A DNA stretch of 64,000 bases, taken from positions 1,054,001-1,118,000 of the forward strand of contig NC_089458.1 in the NCBI RefSeq assembly GCF_026210795.1, given 5' to 3'. The stretch comes from Rhizophagus irregularis. Its lineage: Eukaryota > Glomeromycota > Glomeromycetes > Glomerales > Glomeraceae. Each line of letters starts with the position of its first letter. Position 1 is the first letter of the stretch. A program made the position numbers and the translations under genes. Below the pieces are notes generated by a model that made no database searches, was not told where the DNA came from, and saw nothing but the letters and a program-made list of their open reading frames with translations. Positions 3,212 to 60,200 of the stretch are shown one piece after another.

Positions 3212-5642
3212 ATGAGCGAAACAGCTGCACCTAAAAAGAAAGCGGTTTATAAAAGAGTGAATAAAGTAGCGGAGGCTGCTGTGGATGGCATGGAACCGGT
3301 GGTTAATACAATAAATACAATTTGTGCCGGAGTAGAAGCCGCGGCAAATGTAGCAGTACCATTTGCAAATTTTTTACCACTTATAGGAGAGGTATCTAGA
3401 TTACTTAAAGAAATTGTAGATATATATCAAACAGCAGAGCATAATAAAAGAATATGTGGTGTAATGTTAGATAGAGTAACCATAGCTGAATCTGCTATAA
3501 AAAATTTAAAAGTTCGTAGAGAAGAGAATGAAGATTTTTTTTCAGAAGAAAATTATATTAATTTACAAAAATTAGTTACCGTGGTTGGTAAAATACGTAA
3601 ATTTTTAGCAGAAATTTCTCAATTAAAGGGATTACAAAAATATATTCAAGCTAAAAATATTGAAAAGACTACAATGGATTTAAATAAAGAATTTGATTTT
3701 ACCATTCAACTTTTGGAATTTGCTTTCATGGTTGATTTTAGTGCACGTAATGATATTGATAATAAAAAGATCAAAGCTGATATCGAAGATTTATCTGAGG
3801 TAACTAGTTTATAATTTTGTTAATAGTAATTTAATTTTTTTTTTTTTTTAATACGTATGAGATAAATATAATAATTTTTAATTAAAATATTCATTAATAG
3901 TATCTTCAAGTAATCGGAGGTGGTCTAACTGATACGAATAAAAATGTCTCCGATCTGGTTGTACAATTGAGCGTACTTAATAAAACAATAATGGACAAAA
4001 CTGAAACTAATATATTTCAAAATGAATTACTTCCATATAATGATTTTGATGAAACTGAAGTTGATGAAAATATTGGTAAAAAAATAAAAAAATTTAAAAG
4101 AATAAAAAATGGAATTAATGATTTCGTTGCATTAAAATTAGTAGCAGATGAAAGTAGTAACGAAGAAGCTAAGAATAATATTAAAAATCAAGTTACAATT
4201 TTAAGAAAATTAGAAGAATGTCATAATATTATTCAATTTTTTGGTTTAACTACTACTGATGGTAATAAATGGTTTTTAGTAACTGAATGGGCTGAATATG
4301 GTAATTTACGTGAATTTTATAATACTTATGGTCCACTTGATGTTAAGGTGAAATTATTATTTGCTCTTGATATTTCTAGAGGTTTAAATTTCTTGAGAGC
4401 TGTTGAGGTAATTATCTTTGATGAGAGTTTCTTGTTTTTTTTTTTTTAAAAAAAAAATTATATTTATATACTTTCCCTTTAAATAGATTGTTCATCGTGA
4501 CATAAGAGCCGAGAATATTTTAATTACGGATCATCAAACAGCCAAGATTGCAAATTTTAATTCAAGTAGAGCCGTAACTGATGTTACAAAAAATCACAAA
4601 ACTACATTAGAATGTGTTCGATATTGTGCTCCAGAAAAATTAGAAAGATTAGGATCTCAAACTAAATATGATACAAAGAGTGAAATTTATAGTTTTGGTA
4701 TTTTACTTTGGGAAATTGCCGAAGAAAAAGTTCCTTATGCGGATTATAAAGATATTATGGCTATTACTGAACTTGTTGGTGAAAAAAAATATCGTGAACC
4801 ATTTTCTGAAGTTTCTCCTTTACCAAAAGAATATCAAGATATTGCGAAAAAAGGTATATATACATATATATACATATATATACATTTTTACAACTTATTT
4901 TAATATTAATATTTTATCAATATTTTTAGCTGTTGATCATGATCCCAATTATAGACCTTCATTTACAAGGATATTTACCGTATTACAAGAACTTTTTTCG
5001 AAAAAAAGTAGACCACCACCATCACCTCGTATAAATTCTTCTGGTTCTAATTCTCCTTCTTTAAGGCGTCAAGGAACTATTGATAGTTTTAAACTATCAG
5101 AGGAAGAAGAAGATGATATTATGATATTACCAAATTTCTCAGATTTTAATTATATGACAGTAGATGAAGCAGCAAAGCAACATAAACTCCCTGATGGAAA
5201 TCGGGAATTAGCTTATAGATGTTTTGATGCATATTCAGAATTAGGAGATATGAAAGCGAAATATTTTAAAGCATATTATATTCAACAAAAATATTTTGAA
5301 GTTGATGATATGGATGCAAATGAGAAAGATCAATTAATAGCGAATTTATTTAAAGAAGTAGCAGATTCAGGTGATGAATATCCTGAAGCTCAATTACGTT
5401 ATGGTAATTGTTTAATTAAGGGGATCGGAGTTAAAAAGAATTTAAAAGAAGCAGCAATTTATTTTACTAAAGCAGCTGAAAATGGACAAGTTGTTGGTAT
5501 GTTTAATGCTGCTAGTTTATATTTTTCTGGTGGTGCCGGTAAAAAAGATCCTAAATTAGGAGAAAAATACATGAAATTGGCAGCATATAAACAGCATGCG
5601 CAAGCTATTGAGTATTGTAGGAAAAATAATATTCAATTATAA
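3212..5642 (+). CDS. MLKL-like four-helix / pseudokinase / Sel1-repeat protein
   Basis: Exons 3212-3799, 3901-4407, 4487-4853 and 4930-5642 join in frame (GT-AG throughout) into 724 residues. Residues about 25-225 form an amphipathic helical bundle (PLIGEVSRLLKEIVDIY, RICGVMLDRVTIAESAIKNL) typical of the MLKL/HeLo-like N-terminal domain found on many Glomeromycotina kinases. Residues about 240-500 are a tyrosine-kinase-like fold with VALKLV (beta-3 Lys), HRDIRAEN (catalytic loop), CAPEKL and SEIYSFGILLWE. The glycine loop is absent, the helix-C Glu position reads Gln (NQVTILRKL), and DFG is replaced by ANF. It is therefore probably a pseudokinase. A Ser/Pro-rich linker (PPPSPRINSSGSNSPSLRRQ) and two or three Sel1 repeats follow (about 600-715; AEAQLRYG-type and AAENGQ motifs). 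It may be a signalling adaptor or membrane-acting effector by analogy to MLKL. That function is inference. Confidence 0.82.
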
Positions 5643-6386
5643 TATAATATTATATTGATTGTAACTTTATATTTTATATATTTTATATATATGTATATTT
5701 TTTTTTATTTCTAACATATTAGGATAAATAAAATTATTTCATTATTTCAACTAAAATATATAAAAAATTAAAAAAAAATTATACCTTGTTAATTATATTT
5801 TAAAATTACTTATTTAGTTTAAATTTGGTTACATTTCCGTTATTTTCGATTAAAAATTTTTTGATCATCCAATTAAAGGAAAATAAAACCGGAATTTCGG
5901 AATTCTTAAAACGATTTAATTTTATTTTATTTAATTATTTAATATTGTAGTTTGACCGAATAATAAATATAATAAATACAGAACCAATTCAATTATATAA
6001 TTCATCTTTGTTTGGCTAATCATAATAAGAGTTTCATATGCTTTATTATACAAAAACTCGATGTAAGGAAACCAAATTTAGAGAAAAAAAAAGCGGTATA
6101 AATTCCAAAATAAGTTTAGTTTTATTCTATTTGTTTGTTTACTATAGATTTTATGACCAATAATACATTAATATGAAGATTACATTATAAGCATTATAAG
6201 CTGATCGATAAGATCTCCTTCGTTTATAAAAAAAATCCTTTTGAATTGTTTTTAATAAATAAACAATTATCTTTCTCCTCTCTTTTTTTCAACTTCTCTA
6301 AATTAATAACGAACGATAAAAAAAAAAAACCTTCGTAAAATTCGTAAAAATTCTAAAGCATTTCTATTTCATAATCAAAATTAATT
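5643..6386. other. Intergenic, AT-rich
   Basis: No gene or RNA is recognisable. The stretch contains poly-A/T tracts and a CT-rich leader at about 6270-6300 that probably belongs to the 5' end of the F-box gene. Confidence 0.5.
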
Positions 6387-8009
6387 ATGAATCGAAGAAA
6401 CAAATATTTCAATCAATATTTATTTTTTTTAAAGAAAAAAAATAAAATTGAAGGAAGACGAGAAGAAGAAAAGAAGAAATATATTAAACTTCAAACATTT
6501 CCTGACTGTCTTCATTTAATATTTAATCATTTAAAAAATGATCGATCAACATTATTCAAATGTATTCAAGTGAATAAATTATGGTGTCATATAGCAATGC
6601 CATATTTATGGTATAATCCATTTGAATATTCCAATCCAAAAGGAGATTTACTTATTAAAACATTATTAAATTGTTTACCACAAAATGAAAAACAAATTTT
6701 AGATGATATAAGATTATTTGAATATTCTTTTAAAAATATAACACCATTATTTAATTATCCTAAATTTATAATTTGCTTTAATTCAGAAAATTTTATTAAT
6801 TATGTTAAACAATTATTTAATTCAAATATTACATTAATCCTTCATCTTATAGGAAATATGATATTTCATCGATTTGATAGATTAAAAATTTTAGAATTAC
6901 ATTTTAATGATCAATATAATAATCAAAATGATTATAAATTAATTGAAGATATTAATTCTTCAATAAAATTTCAACAATCTCTTACAAAACTTACAAGATT
7001 TGAAATTCAAATTTATATAAATGAACATACAAATTTCATAATTAATTTATTTGATAAAATTTCAAAATCTTGTAATAACATTCATCATTTATCCTTTATT
7101 ATATATAAAGGAAAATATAATTTTTATCAATCACTTGATAATTCTATTTCATCACTAATTAAATCACAATCTGAGTTAAAAAGTTTGGTGATGAATGAAT
7201 ATTGTTTAAGTTATGAGAATACGTCAATATATGACGCAATATCATCAACTCATTCAAATTCTTTGAAATATTTGGGATTTTGTGTAATCAATGATTATTC
7301 TTTATTAATGAAAATAATATTAGCTTGTAAGAATTTAGAAACATTAGAAATTACTCAACAAGGAAATAATGAAAAATTATTCAATATAGATGATGAAATT
7401 ATTACAAATCAAGAAATTTCTATTAAATATTTTTATTATCATGATATAATTGGAAATGAAAATTTTATTAAAACAATTCTTAAAATGTCATCAAGAAATT
7501 TCAAATCATTTTCTTCAAAATATATAACTGAAGAAATAATAGATACGATGGAATTTTATTGTCCAAATATAACATGTTTAAATATTTTAATGAATTCAAA
7601 TCATATATTAAATTTAATACATTTAATTAGTGGTTTGGAATTTCTTAAATATTTTACTTTAGAATTAGAAAATGGTTGGCCAAAATATCGCGATGAAAGA
7701 TTACAATTATTCGCAAATATTTTACCAAAATCTTTAACATATTTAGTTCTTAATTTTTATATTACTCCTCATCAATTAAATTTCTTTCTTAAGGAATGTG
7801 CTAAAATTCAATTACATACTTTAAAATTAATGTACTTTAATCATAATGATTTAGATCATTTAAAAGTAATTGTTGATTATTCTAAAGAATTTAATCACTT
7901 AAAACAAGTTAAATTTATGGAAAGAAGATTATATGAAAGTGAAACTAATATTGATGAAACTGTTGATTGTGATGTTAAACCTTTTAATTTTAGTCATTAT
8001 GTTAAGTGA
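6387..8009 (+). CDS. F-box protein with LRR-like C-terminal region
   Basis: An intronless protein of 540 residues. The F-box spans about residues 35-80: LQTFPDCLHLIFNHLKNDRS, then TLFKCIQVNKLWCHIAMPYLWYNPFE. This has the usual order of hydrophobic positions and the W-C of lineage-expanded Glomeromycotina F-box proteins. The remainder is a long run of irregular Leu/Ile/Asn-rich helical repeats resembling degenerate LRRs (LKSLVMNEYCLSYEN, LETLEITQQG, LKYFTLELENGW). F-box proteins bind Skp1 in SCF ubiquitin ligases and use the C-terminal part to bind the substrate. The substrate is unknown. The first ATG adds a Lys/Arg-rich 33-residue leader and no later Met precedes the F-box. It has sister copies at 13.9 kb and 34.9 kb. 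Confidence 0.8.
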   Translation: MNRRNKYFNQYLFFLKKKNKIEGRREEEKKKYIKLQTFPDCLHLIFNHLKNDRSTLFKCIQVNKLWCHIAMPYLWYNPFEYSNPKGDLLIKTLLNCLPQNEKQILDDIRLFEYSFKNITPLFNYPKFIICFNSENFINYVKQLFNSNITLILHLIGNMIFHRFDRLKILELHFNDQYNNQNDYKLIEDINSSIKFQQSLTKLTRFEIQIYINEHTNFIINLFDKISKSCNNIHHLSFIIYKGKYNFYQSLDNSISSLIKSQSELKSLVMNEYCLSYENTSIYDAISSTHSNSLKYLGFCVINDYSLLMKIILACKNLETLEITQQGNNEKLFNIDDEIITNQEISIKYFYYHDIIGNENFIKTILKMSSRNFKSFSSKYITEEIIDTMEFYCPNITCLNILMNSNHILNLIHLISGLEFLKYFTLELENGWPKYRDERLQLFANILPKSLTYLVLNFYITPHQLNFFLKECAKIQLHTLKLMYFNHNDLDHLKVIVDYSKEFNHLKQVKFMERRLYESETNIDETVDCDVKPFNFSHYVK

Positions 8010-33087: not shown

Positions 33088-34866
33088 TTAAGCAAATCTT
33101 ACAATAAAATCAAAGACCTTTTCTATAGAACTAATTCTCATATCATTCCTCATACCCACTTTATTAAAATTACATTCAATAATTTTAACATTATTTCTAA
33201 AAGCATATTCTTTTAATACCTTTTTAATTTCATTCTTTGATCCAATACATCTCAAAGATAAATATTTCAAATTAATTAAACATTTTTTTAGAAAAATTCC
33301 AACATCATAAGTTGTAAATGCACATTCTACAACAATAGATAATTCTTTCATTGAAAATGGCATTATCTCTGCAATCTTTTCCAATATTACACCAGGATCC
33401 GGTCTTTTATCTCTTATACTTGCTATACGATAACCTCTTCTTACATGTAAAGATTGTAATTTATTACAATTTTTGAATATTGGAAATAAACTCTCGAAAT
33501 GTGAATTATCATTTCCATTCTCAGTTAAATCAATTCTCTTGAGATTTATACAATCTTCTGCAATACATTCTATTACATCAGGATGAATCGAATTTTCAAA
33601 ATTTAAAATTATTTCTTCAAGGTTACAATATAAAGATTCAGTATCTTCACCACTTATCATTCTTAATAATTGAGTTTCATTAGGATAACTATAATCAAAT
33701 TGTAATTTCTTTAAAGTTGGAAATGGATAAGTATAAAATAATCTATTATGACCTGAAATAATTTCATTCTCATCATCATAAGTGAGATCACCACAATATA
33801 AGAAAATTAATGATTTTAAATTTGTAAAATCATAAAGAGCCTTAAAAGGACAACAATCATTAAAACTACATGAATTAAATTCCAAACTAGTTAATGTATC
33901 AAAATGAATTTCTAAAGATTTAAAAATTTCCGCAATTCCATAATCAACCAAAGAAAATGTAAGATTTTCAAGTTTTTTTTGAGCTTGAATTAAAGGTGCC
34001 CAATCAGTTGATTCATCATAATCAGGATTAAAAATTATTTCAATTTCATTAAGATTATGACAATATTTAATCATTGAATTAATAATTGATTTTTTATAAA
34101 AATTTCCACCACAAACAAATTTTTGTAACCTTGATAAACATTTGAAAGCGCTTGGTAGAAGTGGAAGTGAAAGGTATTCTTTAAAATATAATCCATGATA
34201 AAATTCCAAATCAATTGTTGAAAGATTTAAACCATCAATATAAGGACAATTTTCCATAAAGAGTTTGAATAATTCATGAGTCATTGCAATTATACGTTTA
34301 TTAAGAATATAATGAGATGGATAAGATTCATCAGCTGTTTCATCATAAATTGTATCATGATCTTCATAATCATCTTCGCTATCATCATCATCATCATAAT
34401 CACATAATGAAACGAGTATTTCTTCTTCTTTATCCAAATTTTGATCTTCATTTGAACGATTCAAAAGATTCAATTTAAATTTATTAAAATTATCTTCAAG
34501 ATCATCATTATTATTCGAATATTCATCATGCCACAAAGTCCATGAAGCCTCATAAACTTCAAAGAAATTGAGATGTCGTATATAATAAGGATATTTAAAG
34601 ATTGATTTCCTTTCTATAATCTTTTTATGTAACCCAAGAAGAGTCAATGACTCTTTTGAAAGCCATGGAAGATAAAGATTTATAAGTTTTTTGTGATTGT
34701 ATGTTGGACATAAATGAAAAGGTTGTTTATAAAGTAGAGGTACTGTAGATTTACACCAAATCCTTGAGACCAATAAACAAGAATATAAAGTATTAAGATC
34801 ATATTCCAAATGAGAGAAAATTTGTCCAAGTAATTCAGGTGCTAAATTACTTGATTTCATAAACAT
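33088..34866 (-). CDS. F-box protein with acidic insert and LRR-like region
   Basis: An intronless protein of 592 residues. The F-box is at residues about 6-52: LAPELLGQIFSHLEYDLNTL, then YSCLLVSRIWCKSTVPLLYKQPF. A strongly acidic segment at about 140-180 (CDYDDDDDSEDDYEDHDTIY) separates it from irregular Leu-rich repeats (LTSLEFNSCSFNDC, LKSLIFLYCGDLTY, LKRIDLTENGND, LQSLHVRRGYR), which have clearer LRR spacing than the other two F-box proteins here. It is likely an SCF substrate receptor. Two near-adjacent Met codons (MFMK) are both possible starts. The frame is intact. Confidence 0.82.
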   Translation of the reverse strand: MFMKSSNLAPELLGQIFSHLEYDLNTLYSCLLVSRIWCKSTVPLLYKQPFHLCPTYNHKKLINLYLPWLSKESLTLLGLHKKIIERKSIFKYPYYIRHLNFFEVYEASWTLWHDEYSNNNDDLEDNFNKFKLNLLNRSNEDQNLDKEEEILVSLCDYDDDDDSEDDYEDHDTIYDETADESYPSHYILNKRIIAMTHELFKLFMENCPYIDGLNLSTIDLEFYHGLYFKEYLSLPLLPSAFKCLSRLQKFVCGGNFYKKSIINSMIKYCHNLNEIEIIFNPDYDESTDWAPLIQAQKKLENLTFSLVDYGIAEIFKSLEIHFDTLTSLEFNSCSFNDCCPFKALYDFTNLKSLIFLYCGDLTYDDENEIISGHNRLFYTYPFPTLKKLQFDYSYPNETQLLRMISGEDTESLYCNLEEIILNFENSIHPDVIECIAEDCINLKRIDLTENGNDNSHFESLFPIFKNCNKLQSLHVRRGYRIASIRDKRPDPGVILEKIAEIMPFSMKELSIVVECAFTTYDVGIFLKKCLINLKYLSLRCIGSKNEIKKVLKEYAFRNNVKIIECNFNKVGMRNDMRISSIEKVFDFIVRFA

Positions 34867-35987
34867 GATTAATTATTATGTTTATTTAACTCGTTGGATG
34901 TTGAGTTAACTTCCCAACCAATAATAAATTTGTAGAAAAAAAAATATATATATATATTTTTTTTTAAAAAAAAATAAAAATTAGATCGATTAGAAAAATT
35001 TACATAAAAAAATAGGGAAAGGAATGAAGAAAAGTAATTTAGATAATAGGAAAGAGGTTATATATATATATATATATTTTTAAACTTTAAGATGAAACTA
35101 ACTTTGCCGAAATAGGAAGACTAGGGATAATAGAATAGAAACAAGTTCATATGAAATGAAGTAACGTATTTAAATAGATTATCGGAGAGTAAAGGCTTTT
35201 TGCCACTCAGAATAAAAAAATCTTCATCTGGAAACTTATCAGTAGGAAAAAGAACGATTATTCATAAAGTAGGTTAATAAGTTTTAACTTTGATCTTAAC
35301 AAAAAAAAAGATTGATATATTTGGTAGGTCTGCATTAATTTTTTAAATCCATTCAGCTGTTTCTTAGACTTTTATGTAAGCTCACTTAATATTTTCTTTG
35401 TTTCGTAAACCAGTCTTATTCACAATTAATAATAACCTGTATATTCATGATTCATATTGAAGATATTTTTTTTTTTTTTTGAAATAGCCTCATGTGAAAT
35501 TTTATATAAATGTATATTTACAATATATTAATTACGTCGAAGCATTTCAGTTTTTGTCATCAAAAAGATCTCCATGACATTTTATCGCCTCAAATCTCCG
35601 ATTATTTTCATTGTCGTATTAATTAAACTTTTGATTACATAAATAAATATATATAAAAGTCTTTTATTCACGTTCCGCACGTTCTGATAATATTTTTAAA
35701 ACAATCGCTAAAATTTATTATTGTTTATTTGTTATTACGAAAATTTTGACAAAAAAAAAAAATTTTTTTTTCATGCAAGAAAATTAGCATATAATTATGC
35801 AAATTTAGATATTTTCTGAAATATACCCCCTTTTTTTTTGATAAAAATAGAAGCAAAAAGAACGTATGTTTCACTCTTAAATTTTTCATGCAAATTTCTT
35901 ATTGAATTCTATCGTGAAATATACTCTTTTTATTCATCCAATGTAAATTAAATCCCACATATATGACTCAACATTGAGACTGCGTCA
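34867..35987. other. Intergenic, AT-rich
   Basis: This holds the upstream region of the F-box gene and the 3' flank of the HMG-box gene. There are several A- and T-runs, with T-rich tracts at about 35465-35480 and 35755-35770. No gene or RNA is recognised. Confidence 0.5.
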
Positions 35988-43093: not shown

Positions 43094-45534
43094 TAGGGAT
43101 GTTAACGGTTCGGTCCATCCGGTTTTCGGTCCAAAAACTGGTGGTTTGAGTACAAAACCGAACCGTTATAGGTTTAGAACCAGAGTTTGAACCGAAGTTT
43201 GGACTGAAGTTTAGACCGAAGTTTAGACCGGATATTTATAGTATTTTATACAAAATTGTGTAATGCAGATCATGAATTTAAATATATCGTATATCGTCAA
43301 AAAATTTTTTATTATAAGAAAAAAAATTACCAACAAAATTTCACATAATGTAAAAAAAAGGAAAAAAAAAGACATATTGCAAGTATTGATTCAATTTTCC
43401 ATTCTTTCTTTTTCTGATATCCAATTTTTCATGCATATAATTGCCCTTGCCGTTTCAGGATCTAACCTATTTCTAGTTTTTGAAATAGTTAATCCCGGAA
43501 ATTGAAAAATGCCCTTTCTGATGGAACCGACGTTGCTTGGATTGTTAAATAATCCTTAGCTATTTGAGATAGTACTGGGTAATCCTTTTCATAAGTTTTC
43601 CACCAAATTAAAGAACCTGTATTACTATCTACTGGAGAATTTAAGTATCGATCTAATTCATCATGCGATACTTCTTGACGAATATTATTTGGATTAAGTA
43701 AATTAAGAAAATAATCACGAGATGATCGTGCTGGTGCTGATGGTATGGTTTGATTATTTAAGGGTAAATATGACAAATATAATTCTTGTAATTTACTAAT
43801 AATTTCAGTTATATCATTATGACTAAATAATGTGGTTTTGTAGCGTGGATCTAATATTGAAGAAGTAATGGAAGATTGATTCAAATATTTGTCCCAATAG
43901 GCTTTCAATTTATTACAAATTGCTGATGCTATTGCCTTTTGTGTATGGTGATTTCCTCTTTGATAATGATCCAATTTTTTAAACATTCCATTAAAAACCA
44001 ATCTTATATCACCTTGTGTAGGATTTTTTGATGATGATAATAAATTGGTTGCTTCATACATAGGTTCTAATACCTTTGCTAATTCCTGTAAAAAAAAAAA
44101 TAATAATTAATAAATATATAATTATAAAATAAAATAAATAATAATTTATAAAATAAAAAATACCTTAATATGTCGCCATTCAGATATTGTTGGAAATAAA
44201 TCTCCAAGTTCTTCAACATTTGTTGTTGCAAGTAATTCTGAAACACCCTGCATTAAGATTTGTCTATTAATCATAAAATATGTGGAATTCCAGCGAATGT
44301 CTATATCTAAAATTGGTTTAAGAAATTTAACTTTTTTAAGGGTACAAATTTCTGATAATTTATCCAAAAATAATGGTGAATTCTTGATTTTAACAACAAA
44401 TTGACGAAGTTTTTTGATTTCATTTCCAACATGACTCATTCCTGCTTTTACTGCTAAATTTATAATATGTGCAGCACATCTGTAATGAGTAAAAGCCATA
44501 TTATTAAACTCCTGATCTAATTCAGTTGCTAGTTGATTACCACATGCTATCATGTTGCTTCCATTGTCTGTAGTTAATGCAAGAATATTATTACTGATAC
44601 TAAACTCTTCAAGAATTTGTAAAAGCTTGCTAGTAATTAACCCAGCTGTATGAAAACCATTTACAGGAATTAAATCAAGTAAGAGATTTTTTAATTCCCA
44701 ATTGTTGTTAATATAATGCATTGTTACTCCAAGATAACAATCTTTTGAGATTTCTGAAGTCCAAATATCAGTAGTAAGAGAGATTTTTGAGTTAATTTGT
44801 GAGACTTCATTAATTAACACATTTTTTCTCATTTTATAATTTTCTATGAATTTTTCCTTTAAGGTTTGTCTGCAAGGTAAAATATAGTGGGGATTCAATT
44901 TATTAATTAATAATTTGAATTCAGGATTTTCAACAATGGTAAAAGGTTGCAAATCAGTTGCAACAAAATCAACCAAAGAATCTGTGATAGGTTTAGATTT
45001 TGATGGAGAGTAAGGTTTAAAACGTAAAGTAGTTTAGCGGGTTTCAGGTTTTTTATAATGTGATGGATGTTTTTTAGTTAAATGACGTCGAAGTGTAGAT
45101 GTTGGATTACCAGGTGAATAAAGTTTTGCACACAAAATACACTTATAGTTTGTAATTAACCAACTTTCCTCATCTTGAATTTTTTGAAAAAACTCCCAAA
45201 CATCTGCTGACAATTTCTTATTTATAATTCTTTCATCATCAGATGCTGAATCATCTGATAAATTATTATCGTCATTTTCAAAAACTCCCGACATAGTTGT
45301 AATAATGCAAGGTGATATAAAAAAATGTAAGAATGTAAAATCCGTTATTCTTTTATTGTAAAAAGTTACGCGTGCAGATACACGTAACCGTTAATTGAAC
45401 CGATCTAAAACCGGTTCACTAAACCGGTTTCTATCGCTCGGGCTCTGGCGCTTCGACGTTTGAACTGAACTGAAACCGGTCCTATGATCAAACTGCGGTT
45501 CGAACCATCCAATCATAAACTGTTAACATCTCTA
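43094..45534 (-). mobile_element. hAT transposon, structurally complete
   Basis: The element is 2441 bp. Termini TAGGGATGTTAACGGTT (43094) and the inverse of TAGAGATGTTAACAGTT (ending 45534) are imperfect inverted repeats of the hAT type. They are flanked by a perfect 8-bp duplication, GATCCAAG (43086-43093 and 45535-45542), the diagnostic length for hAT. Subterminal regions are rich in CGGTTCGGT/ACCGGTT repeats. One transposase gene fills the interior on the minus strand, in two coding segments, and is inactivated (see separate entry). The exact target duplication suggests a fairly recent insertion. Confidence 0.93.
43391..45294 (-). pseudogene. hAT transposase with BED zinc finger, inactivated
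   Basis: The coding region starts at 45294 with an acidic leader, then a BED-type zinc finger (YKCILCAKLYSPGNPTSTLR, then RHLTKKH). A stop at 45034-45036 interrupts the frame, but the same frame continues at once into the RNase H-like catalytic part (LTTDIWTSEISKDCYLGVTM, ALTTDNGSNM, RCAAHIINLAVKAGM). An in-frame GT-AG intron of about 75 nt lies near 44160-44090. The C-terminal dimerisation region (SLIWWKTYEKDYPVLSQIAK, ATSVPSERAF) then suffers a one-base frameshift near 43505. The expected tail is readable in another frame down to 43391. One nonsense change plus one frameshift make it non-functional as read, unless the stop is a sequencing error. Confidence 0.9.
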
Positions 45535-57236: not shown

Positions 57237-60200
57237 TTATTGCCTAATGACGAGTCTAACATATGGAACCTATAAGGCAACAACATAATTAGTTTATTTA
57301 ACCATTTTATTTAAGGATTGCAAAGAAAAAGTTTTTATATTTACCTCTACATCTTCTTCATTACGATCGTTTACAACCATTTCTAAAGTTAACGCTTTAA
57401 CATGTGGCGGAATAGGTTTCTTAGCGATCGATTCCACTAATTCTGATAACCTATATATATTAATTAAGATCAATTAATTACATGTTCATTAACATTATTT
57501 ATTAAAATGGATTCTTAATGGTGTACCTCATATTTTTACGTTCTTCCCTTTTCTTGCCTTGCAGAAAGAATGCATATAACATACTTGCACCGCACGACAG
57601 CATTGTCACATCTAGTTCGTGGTTCTTTTTGAAATAATCCAAGAATTCTTGAAGTGTAAGATCACCTTCAATATCAAATCTATCCCATAAACTCCATTCT
57701 GTTTCGTGATACTAATAAATTTAGATAAAAAATTAGGTTCAATAGAAAAGTTTGATAGAATATAAGAAAAAAGTACGAATACATAAAATAATTACCTTGA
57801 ATTTAGGCATAGCAATAGGCTCTGAAAATCCAAAGAATGGTAGAGCTAAATTTACAAAACCATTTTTATAATCTTCTATCTTATTCTTGCCACCAATAAT
57901 TTTGTATAATTCTAAACATACTAATCCAGTTACTAATGCTGTCGTTGTAGCAATAGCCGGTATAATTTTACCAGCAATGAATTTAGTCTTGTGACGATCC
58001 GCTGGTTGAATACCATAGTTCGTGGCTCTTAAATTAGAGGTTGCAGTGATGAAATCAATATGGAAATTTGTATCATCATCTTTTTCGAATTCTACTGGAT
58101 TCAATCGGAATCCAGGAATTGATGCTGGGTCGGGTAAACTTGAAATAATTTCTTGTAGTTCATTTTCATCAGTTGTTAGCTGAATATTTTCATTTTCTTG
58201 CACTTGAATTTTTACACCAGATTTTGGATGAAATTCAGGTACCATAACATTACTTAACACATTTTTAATGTATTCTCGATTTGTTTCACCTAAATATTAT
58301 AACGAATTTTAATGTAAATAATTATAATATTAATAATGAGTAAAATACTTGAATATACCTTTGAGACCATAATTGAATGCATGTAAATTTGCCGCTGTTA
58401 CGATAAATTCTAGATGTTCATTCTAGTATGCAGAAATATGAATTACTTAATAGTTAATCATTAAAAACGAAGAATATTGATATATACTTACATTGTTAGC
58501 ATCAAAGACAATTGGGTCAGGTGCTCTCTTTGGACCAGACCAAAACTTCGTACCAGTGGACGTAATCTATGTAAAAAAAAAACCCTTAAACCGTTAGACT
58601 CTGTGGACTTCGTTACACGTAACAACAGATTCAACCATCCCATTTATGATGTGGTATTTGATTTAATTAACACAATAAATAAACTATTTTGTAGCGACTT
58701 ACTGTATCTTTTGGGAAATTGAATAGTAGCTGTTGGATAGTATTATTAAAATATTCTTCAAATTTCAAACGAGCCCATGTAACGCACTCTTCGAACGTTA
58801 ATGGACGTTCGCTAACTAAATAATTTTGAACTCCTTCCAGAATTTCTTTTGAGCCACTACCATGTTTTGCTGTAGCTTCAATAAAGCCAGATTGGCTTAG
58901 ATAGGAATTGACATTTTCAGCAGGTGTTTTAAATAACCCTTCAAACAATTCACGCGCCCACTGAATTGTATGTTCAATTGCATTTGGAAAGTTTTTTAGA
59001 GTACAAATTGGAATAGATTTTTCGGGTGGGTCTTGGGATGATGAATAGGATTCAGTAAGGTACGGAATAACAACTTGTGTATTACCCTTTGTGCCTAGTG
59101 TTCCGGACTCTAATAAAGGTTTTCTAAAGTATACACATCGTCTATCCATGTATTTACCTAAGAATTCACAAAAAAAAAAGAAAAGATTAATGGTATAATT
59201 AAAAATTCTCAACATCACATCCTAATAAACTGCTTACGGGCATCAACGTTGTCTAATGCATTGGTTACTCCGTCCAAACGATCAAAGAAATCATCATTAT
59301 AAACATTTTCAGTTTCTACGCCAACACGATCTTGGTGAGCAATATATTTTCCTTTAGTTTCAGGATTCATTCTGTTTATGGCAGCAATTGCGGTTTCTGA
59401 TTTTAATTTCTAAAAATAAAATTCTTTTTTAAAAACTTTTTCTTATAATCTTGATTAATTAAGAGATCTAATTAATACATACACCAACGTCACGAGAACG
59501 GAACAAGAATTGTCGATTTAAGTTACTTTTTTCAATTGTATCCATATCTGTAACATGCACAGCACCTCTCGGACCAGTACCCAATCCCATCATAGCCCAG
59601 TTTTTTAGCATTTCACATCCAATAGCACCAGCACCGACCTAATCAAAAGAAAGATAAGAAATAATTTTCACACTATAATTATATATAAAAACAATAAATT
59701 TAAAAAATACCAAGAATTCTCTAAAATTCGCAATTTTATGTTGAAAATCTTTGCCAAATACTGCTATTTGACCATCGTAACGAGAATTGCACTTGTGATT
59801 ATATAAGTAAAAATCAATGTTAGAATAACAGAAATTATTTAGGCAAAAATCAAAATATAAATAAAAATAACAACATACTGGAGCACAATTTTCTTCGTTC
59901 AAAGTGTCATTATCTGGCAAAGACTCCAAAGAATCAAAATAAAAGAATTGTTGTATTGGGTGAAACTTCCCACTGCAGGCTTTTAATACTTCTTGAGCAA
60001 CTAATCCACCAAAAAATGCAACCATGGGTGATAAATCTCCAGTTGCACAATATGCAAGTTGTTTAAGAAGCTTATCGTCATCAAACTCAACCTAATAATA
60101 GTATATTATATTAATATCGGAATACCGATAAATATTCGATACTTTATACTAAGAATTTTAAAAAATACCTTTTCCTCGCATTGATCATTAATATTTTTAG

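Follow-up and report, generated by a model that had tools for sequence, protein, structure and literature searches.

The hyphae of mycorrhizal fungi fuse and carry many nuclei. In Rhizophagus irregularis, a gene at 3212-5642 on the forward strand of the stretch of DNA analysed here (64,000 nucleotides, positions 1,054,001 to 1,118,000 of contig NC_089458.1 in assembly GCF_026210795.1; hereafter the window) is predicted to encode a protein with an N-terminal four-helix bundle (4HB), a kinase fold and C-terminal Sel1 repeats. An earlier note on this DNA had likened the layout to that of MLKL, the animal necroptosis executioner. This raises the question of whether the protein is a switch of the MLKL type, or whether it is a signalling scaffold, a convergent look-alike or the decaying copy of an active kinase. 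Here, we describe the gene, its relatives in the same genome and its likeness to systems known from animals, plants and other fungi.

The four exons that the earlier note had proposed join into a frame of 724 amino acids (aa) with 0 internal stops, and the three introns (101, 79 and 76 nt), all GT-AG, have a GC content of 0.11-0.17 vs 0.26-0.31 in the exons. Exon 1 (3212-3799; aa 1-196) starts with a basic segment and a hydrophobic stretch at about aa 37-58, followed by the MLKL-like 4HB; about 60 aa precede its match to the Pfam model MLKL_N (PF22215), which covers 3401-3739 (aa 64-176; E 1.1e-4) and scores 22.1 bits, under the cut-off of 27. Intron 1 (3800-3900; 101 nt, phase 0) separates the 4HB exon from the remainder. 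Exon 2 (3901-4407; aa 197-365) encodes a linker and the kinase N-lobe with a degenerate Gly loop, where by alignment the beta-3 Lys275 of VALK is retained (4135-4137) and Gln293 takes the position of the helix-C Glu (4189-4191). The motifs HRDIRAEN, NFN and CAPE lie in exon 3 (4487-4853; aa 366-487 and base 1 of codon 488); the HRD motif (aa 368-370; 4493-4501) is retained, and alignment to intact relatives puts Asn388-Phe389-Asn390 (4553-4561) at the DFG position. Exon 4 (4930-5642) adds the end of the kinase C-lobe, a Ser/Pro/acidic linker, the Sel1 repeats and the stop, with two Pfam Sel1 stretches, the better of them at aa 639-673 (5382-5486; E 1.1e-12). For the whole protein, Pfam returns PK_Tyr_Ser-Thr (9e-43), Sel1 (2.3e-12, two stretches) and MLKL_N (0.0016), and MLKL_N is the best match of exon 1 alone; Pfam and the motif alignment agree with the helical N-terminus, the kinase fold that lacks important catalytic motifs and the Sel1 repeats described earlier. 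An AlphaFold2 single-sequence model of exon 1 only is of low confidence (pLDDT 46.7, pTM 0.35). The predicted four-exon model draws its best support from intron positions that recur in relatives: among 54 other modelled loci, for which the window protein itself was the query, the position 488/phase 1 recurs in 35, 196/phase 0 in 24 and 365/phase 0 in 22. Judged by its frames and motifs, this is a real MLKL-like pseudokinase gene with conserved motif losses and a putative function.

A palindromic repeat (2142-2268), with 46-nt arms that are 93% complementary, lies some 0.9 kb ahead of the gene, and the stretch around it (2100-2310) has 112 matching pieces genome-wide and is MITE-like. The window further holds an RNase III-like domain at 505-1038, with a weaker mL44 match, and two F-box-like proteins (6375-8006 and 33091-34872), each a single long frame slightly under the Pfam cut-off. 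On the reverse strand are pieces of a hAT transposase (43492-45033; Pfam match on the 43492-44106 frame, the remainder judged by translation) and a partial gene for a ubiquitin-activating enzyme E1 (57742-58296; UBA_E1_SCCH).

On balance, we think it somewhat more probable than not that the gene encodes a switch protein of the MLKL type, with Sel1 repeats or a TKL kinase as input, a 4HB restrained by the pseudokinase and a response that acts at a membrane. At rest, the pseudokinase would keep the 4HB domain from acting. A signal would be sensed via the Sel1 repeats, or relayed by an active TKL-type kinase like those fused to sister modules; the pseudokinase would then be phosphorylated or rearranged, a TKL kinase acting in trans or in cis to release the 4HB, and the released 4HB would oligomerise and act at the membrane. 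The output could be self-directed death or the sealing of a compartment when non-self, infection or injury is met. The Sel1 repeats may be an exchangeable input module or a scaffold, which a kinase may replace in the closest relative. If this is true, these loci would be candidates for genes by which mycorrhizal fungi tell self from non-self or respond to injury. An executioner module beside or within a kinase chain would, moreover, be a natural test of how a pseudokinase gates a 4HB and of the age of the pairing.

The relatives of the gene within the genome bear directly on this reading. In 146.7 Mb (32 contigs), exon 1 has at least 147 matches among those listed; 19 of the 147 were dropped (E above 1e-7) and 128 4HB places were carried forward. 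After the removal of eight duplicate or overlapping loci, 50 of the 55 modelled loci (window included) have a 4HB together with a pseudokinase. The alignment reaches the Sel1 part (past residue 680) in nine modelled loci besides the window, and the absence of Sel1 was not counted, because the stretches often ended before that part. Clusters of 4HB loci are found on C15 (0.46-1.1 Mb), C29 (1.28-1.46 and 2.81-2.96 Mb) and C20 (2.09-2.13 Mb).

Several of these loci join the 4HB to further domains. In L064, L096 and L097 (C29), one intron-free open frame runs from the end of a kinase C-lobe through a linker and a 4HB into the N-lobe of a pseudokinase, and the exons upstream bear a Gly loop and DFG. 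This frame, open in three loci, is the evidence that the linker between kinase and 4HB is predicted to be coding; for the linker of L096 and L097 dN/dS is uninformative (pN 0.051, pS 0.039). A kinase also precedes the 4HB in L098, L099 and L100 (with DLG, DLG and DFG, respectively), in a different frame, so that a predicted splice is required. Two or three 4HBs followed by a kinase with DFG occur in L012, L017, L024 and L034 (C1). In L101 and L102 (C15), the end of a kinase, a weakly MACPF-like domain of about 690 aa and a 4HB share one frame, which in L102 continues into the N-lobe of a pseudokinase; the kinase of L102 has DSG. The ~690-aa domain (1415-3502 in L101, 1951-4029 in L102, minus strand) matches the fungal MACPF-like model PF22693 weakly, with E-values of 1.4e-4 and 0.012 that both miss the cut-off, and is found in 59 merged regions of the genome, 11 of them immediately upstream of a 4HB. 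On C28, one frame of 1520 aa is matched by this domain and by a clear MACPF match nearby. The closest relative of the window gene (C1) may carry a kinase in place of the Sel1 repeats: a predicted splice runs its pseudokinase into a DFG kinase at this place, at a junction where the aligner placed the introns differently in two runs and where a separate downstream gene is possible.

By their motifs, the linked kinases are not fully canonical. DFG is retained in L064, L096, L097, L100, L010, L013, L012, L017, L024, L034 and L101, while HRD is replaced by HCD in L097 and L013, by HKD in L102 and by HTD in L101. L034 has Ser for the first Gly of its Gly loop, and the Glu of APE is Gln in the four tandem-4HB kinases (L012, L017, L024 and L034), in whose models helix C is unresolved. 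In a 4HB tree of 67 rows (a quick search, with L040 left out), the window copy falls into a set of 14 with a support of 99, together with eight 4HBs of tandem kinases and three of L022, and pseudokinase-linked and unlinked 4HBs require six changes. It is probable that the 4HB changed partners repeatedly, and the 4HB-pseudokinase module is combinatorial within this genome.

Such a distribution is also what the main rival draws on, which we regard as a real but lesser possibility. In that view, the protein is a signalling scaffold that permeabilises no membrane; its 4HB would serve in oligomerisation or as an adaptor, and its pseudokinase and Sel1 repeats would gather active TKL kinases, for example in the sensing of plant or soil signals. 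The tandem 4HBs ahead of the DFG kinases in L012, L017, L024 and L034 and the internal position of the 4HB in L064, L096, L097, L101 and L102 speak for it, as does the description, in the accessible part of PMC8647823, of the expanded kinase and Sel1 families of R. irregularis, which lie near Mutator-like elements, as signalling-related genes. A plain MLKL mechanism, with a free N-terminal helix, is likewise ill-fitting, because the 4HB is internal or present in two to three copies in several relatives. However, the pseudokinase ranks MLKL first among solved structures (see below), and 4HBs are found close to MACPF domains more often than expected. With expected counts that assume an even spread along the genome, and with cases that are non-independent since tandem duplication inflates every count, 8 of 38 MACPF places have a 4HB place no more than 5 kb away (mixed orientation; expected 0.27), 13 of the 59 regions of the ~690-aa domain lie within 1.5 kb (all on the same strand; expected 0.16), and 13 of 150 listed kinase places lie within 3 kb (all on the same strand; expected 0.70), where the kinase probe was by construction similar to the four tandem-4HB kinases and these are 4 of the 13. 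In a general Pfam kinase sample, 6 of 147 listed places lie within 3 kb of a 4HB place, namely one pseudokinase (L015), two kinases on the opposite strand and three on the same strand. The association is weaker here than for the 150 places, and each count covers the places listed out of a larger set of kinases.

The neighbouring kinase and MACPF-like domains make a role of the proposed MLKL-type switch in cell death or hyphal incompatibility, which the earlier note had put forward, a more likely hypothesis, though they do not show it. A bolder form of the switch, which we find possible but doubtful, is that some loci encode single-chain, necroptosis-like units, in which an active kinase is fused in cis to its own 4HB-pseudokinase executioner, some with an intervening MACPF-like domain; the window gene would then be the Sel1-controlled form, and recurrent swapping of the 4HB and of the end domains would give this mycorrhizal symbiont a combinatorial repertoire for death or allorecognition.

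The likeness to MLKL can be followed in each of the two domains. For the N-terminal domain, 61 of the 95 MLKL_N places listed for this genome pass the cut-off, 5 of these only with in-frame neighbours, and 14 control genomes gave one match, below the cut-off. MLKL_N is matched by 48 of 51 4HB sequences at E<0.01; the match of the closest relative is weaker than that of the window gene (E 0.077). Exon 1 alone found no match in the PDB up to E 10 and none in NCBIfam up to E 1. A profile of the 51 4HB sequences (A2) matches MLKL chains in the PDB with E 1.7e-6 to 8.8e-5, along residues 10-123 of the mouse MLKL chain; these are the sole PDB matches with E < 0.01, the next one being at 0.04, and the result is partly circular, because 24 of the 51 rows were picked through PF22215. 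A profile of 27 close relatives, none of them chosen by MLKL_N (A1), found no MLKL in the PDB, and its HMM-HMM comparison with two MLKL sequences is weak (E 0.0094, probability 4%), with a score of 21.5 vs at most 18.2 in all 60 column shuffles. With an E limit of 10 for the window protein and of 0.01 for the 51 4HB members, no HeLo or HELL model of Pfam (PF14479 and relatives) gave a match.

For the window pseudokinase, MLKL pseudokinases make up 11 of the 12 top PDB sequences, several of them constructs of one protein (best 4.3e-27, 98.3 bits), by a small margin over a JAK chain (97.1 bits, a lead of about 1 bit) and B-Raf (91.8 bits, about 6 bits). With L055, a distant paralogue with 4HB and pseudokinase that MLKL_N itself had picked out, a JAK chain comes first and MLKL ranks 2, 4, 5 and 6; full-length MLKL here beats kinase-only MLKL by 11-14 bits (86.3 vs 75.4; 82.2 vs 67.8), as expected from a true 4HB match. 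When only the kinase part of the window protein is the query, full-length MLKL chains score 1-2 bits below kinase-only ones. For the linked kinases of L096 and of the closest relative, neither MLKL nor RIPK is among the 60 PDB hits listed for each, which include ABL, FGFR, MLT/ZAK, roco4 and CTR1. That the two domains both lead to MLKL speaks for common descent, as far as a comparison with solved structures goes. The MLKL-like layout of the earlier note is upheld in that the pseudokinase ranks MLKL first and the N-terminus matches MLKL_N, with the qualification that the latter match is below the Pfam cut-off in this copy; to judge from these comparisons, the MLKL reading is stronger than the earlier note had stated. 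It is, in our view, unlikely that fungi joined a helical domain and a TKL pseudokinase, neither of them related to MLKL, in an order that only resembles it: such convergence would agree with the weak sequence match of the 4HB and with the small lead of MLKL over JAK, B-Raf and ABL, but both domains point to MLKL also in the distant paralogue L055, and the two linked kinases have no MLKL among their listed PDB hits.

The kinase part itself retains VALK, HRD and the catalytic-loop Asn. Its Gly loop is degenerate (IGKKIKK vs IGKGGFG in the intact relative L024), and against the IADFGLSK of intact relatives it reads NFN at DFG, with Asp changed to Asn388, Phe389 kept and Gly changed to Asn390. Alignment confirms the lost Gly loop, the Gln at the helix-C Glu, the lost DFG and the retained VALK and HRD that had been noted before, and corrects the earlier reading of ANF, which was one residue out of register. 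By these motifs (NFN, Gln at the helix-C Glu, degenerate Gly loop), the window kinase is predicted to be catalytically dead. Whether the loss is conserved was answered with a motif table of 70 loci including the window (50 from whole-stretch models and 20 fetched as kinase pieces; L022 was left out, having no kinase in its stretch). At the DFG Asp, 67 loci have Asn, 2 have Lys, 1 has Gly and none has Asp, and the DFG Gly is retained in 1 of 70. Of the 65 loci with a residue at the beta-3 Lys column, 63 retain the Lys; 64 of 70 retain the HRD Asp, and the helix-C Glu column holds Gln in 38, His in 12 and Glu in 7. NFN is a fixed family signature within this genome, rather than the mark of one decaying copy beside relatives with an intact DFG, as the earlier note had allowed. 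Activation-loop positions 392 and 399 are Ser or Thr in 66% and 74% of the 70 loci, which may hint at an upstream kinase that phosphorylates them.

In a kinase tree of 88 rows (a quick search with long-branch warnings, L040 among them; L091, with less than 200 aa, was dropped), 69 pseudokinase rows lie on one side of a branch with an SH-aLRT of 95, and the window copy and its C1 relative form a group with a support of 97. The window gene and this closest relative share 83% identity over exon 1 and 85% over exon 2, and dN/dS between the two is 0.53, with a synonymous excess (Fisher p 0.0009). Values are 0.41 against the C32 relative, with 0.23 for the Sel1 part, and 0.76 against the C9 relative; they reflect purifying selection, though it is not strong. 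The C9 relative (L018 with L073, C9:1814792-1819300) is Sel1-bearing and has lost HRD too. Decay from an active TKL/Sel1 kinase is a highly improbable account of the window gene, and decay of a single copy is rejected because 67 of the 70 loci in this genome, window included, have lost the same Asp to Asn: the missing Gly loop, helix-C Glu and DFG, the dN/dS values of 0.53 and 0.76, which are not low, and the loss of HRD in the C9 relative would suit it, but the pseudokinases form one side of a branch, the frames are open with recurring introns, and synonymous changes are in excess against the closest relative.

Kwon et al. 2019 is said to deal with pseudokinases and may cover the kinase part. 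The existence of the family is already in print, because PMC8778642 (2022) reports Sel1-bearing MLKL homologues of Glomeromycotina: by its account, homologues of the MLKL family (TCDB 1.A.105) are found "exclusively in Glomeromycotina" and "possess a repetitive Sel1 domain", and, going by the accessible part of that article, these are very probably the family of the window gene. That part gives no account of catalytic motifs, of fusions to kinase or MACPF-like domains, of 4HBs in tandem or of a phylogeny. In the portions of the open-licence literature that could be consulted, no report was found of cis kinase-4HB-pseudokinase chains or of a fixed NFN signature. New here are the kinase fusions and the near-uniform dead-kinase signature, the family itself being partly known.

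The window protein shares with animal MLKL an N-terminal 4HB followed by a pseudokinase, a retained beta-3 Lys and a lost DFG. Animal MLKL has GFE at the DFG position and lacks HRD. Unlike it, the window protein has C-terminal Sel1 repeats and combines NFN with a retained HRD. According to the accessible part of PMC12881547, a separate kinase activates animal MLKL in trans, and HELL domains occur in fungal kinase or pseudokinase proteins. The fungal HeLo/HELL and basidiomycete MLKL-like proteins (HET-S, HELLP, BaMLKL) belong, as far as the available excerpts describe them, to the same MLKL-related 4HB superfamily, and the basidiomycete forms, too, have an extra helix ahead of the bundle (PMC9815663, in part); unlike HeLo/HELL, the window family matches no HeLo or HELL Pfam model. 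Plant MLKLs such as wheat Pm13, an MLKL protein with an N-terminal domain, seem alike in layout from the description in the accessible part of PMC10951266. What sets the window family apart from animal MLKL is, in addition, its 128 4HB places in one genome and the joining of its relatives to kinases with DFG.
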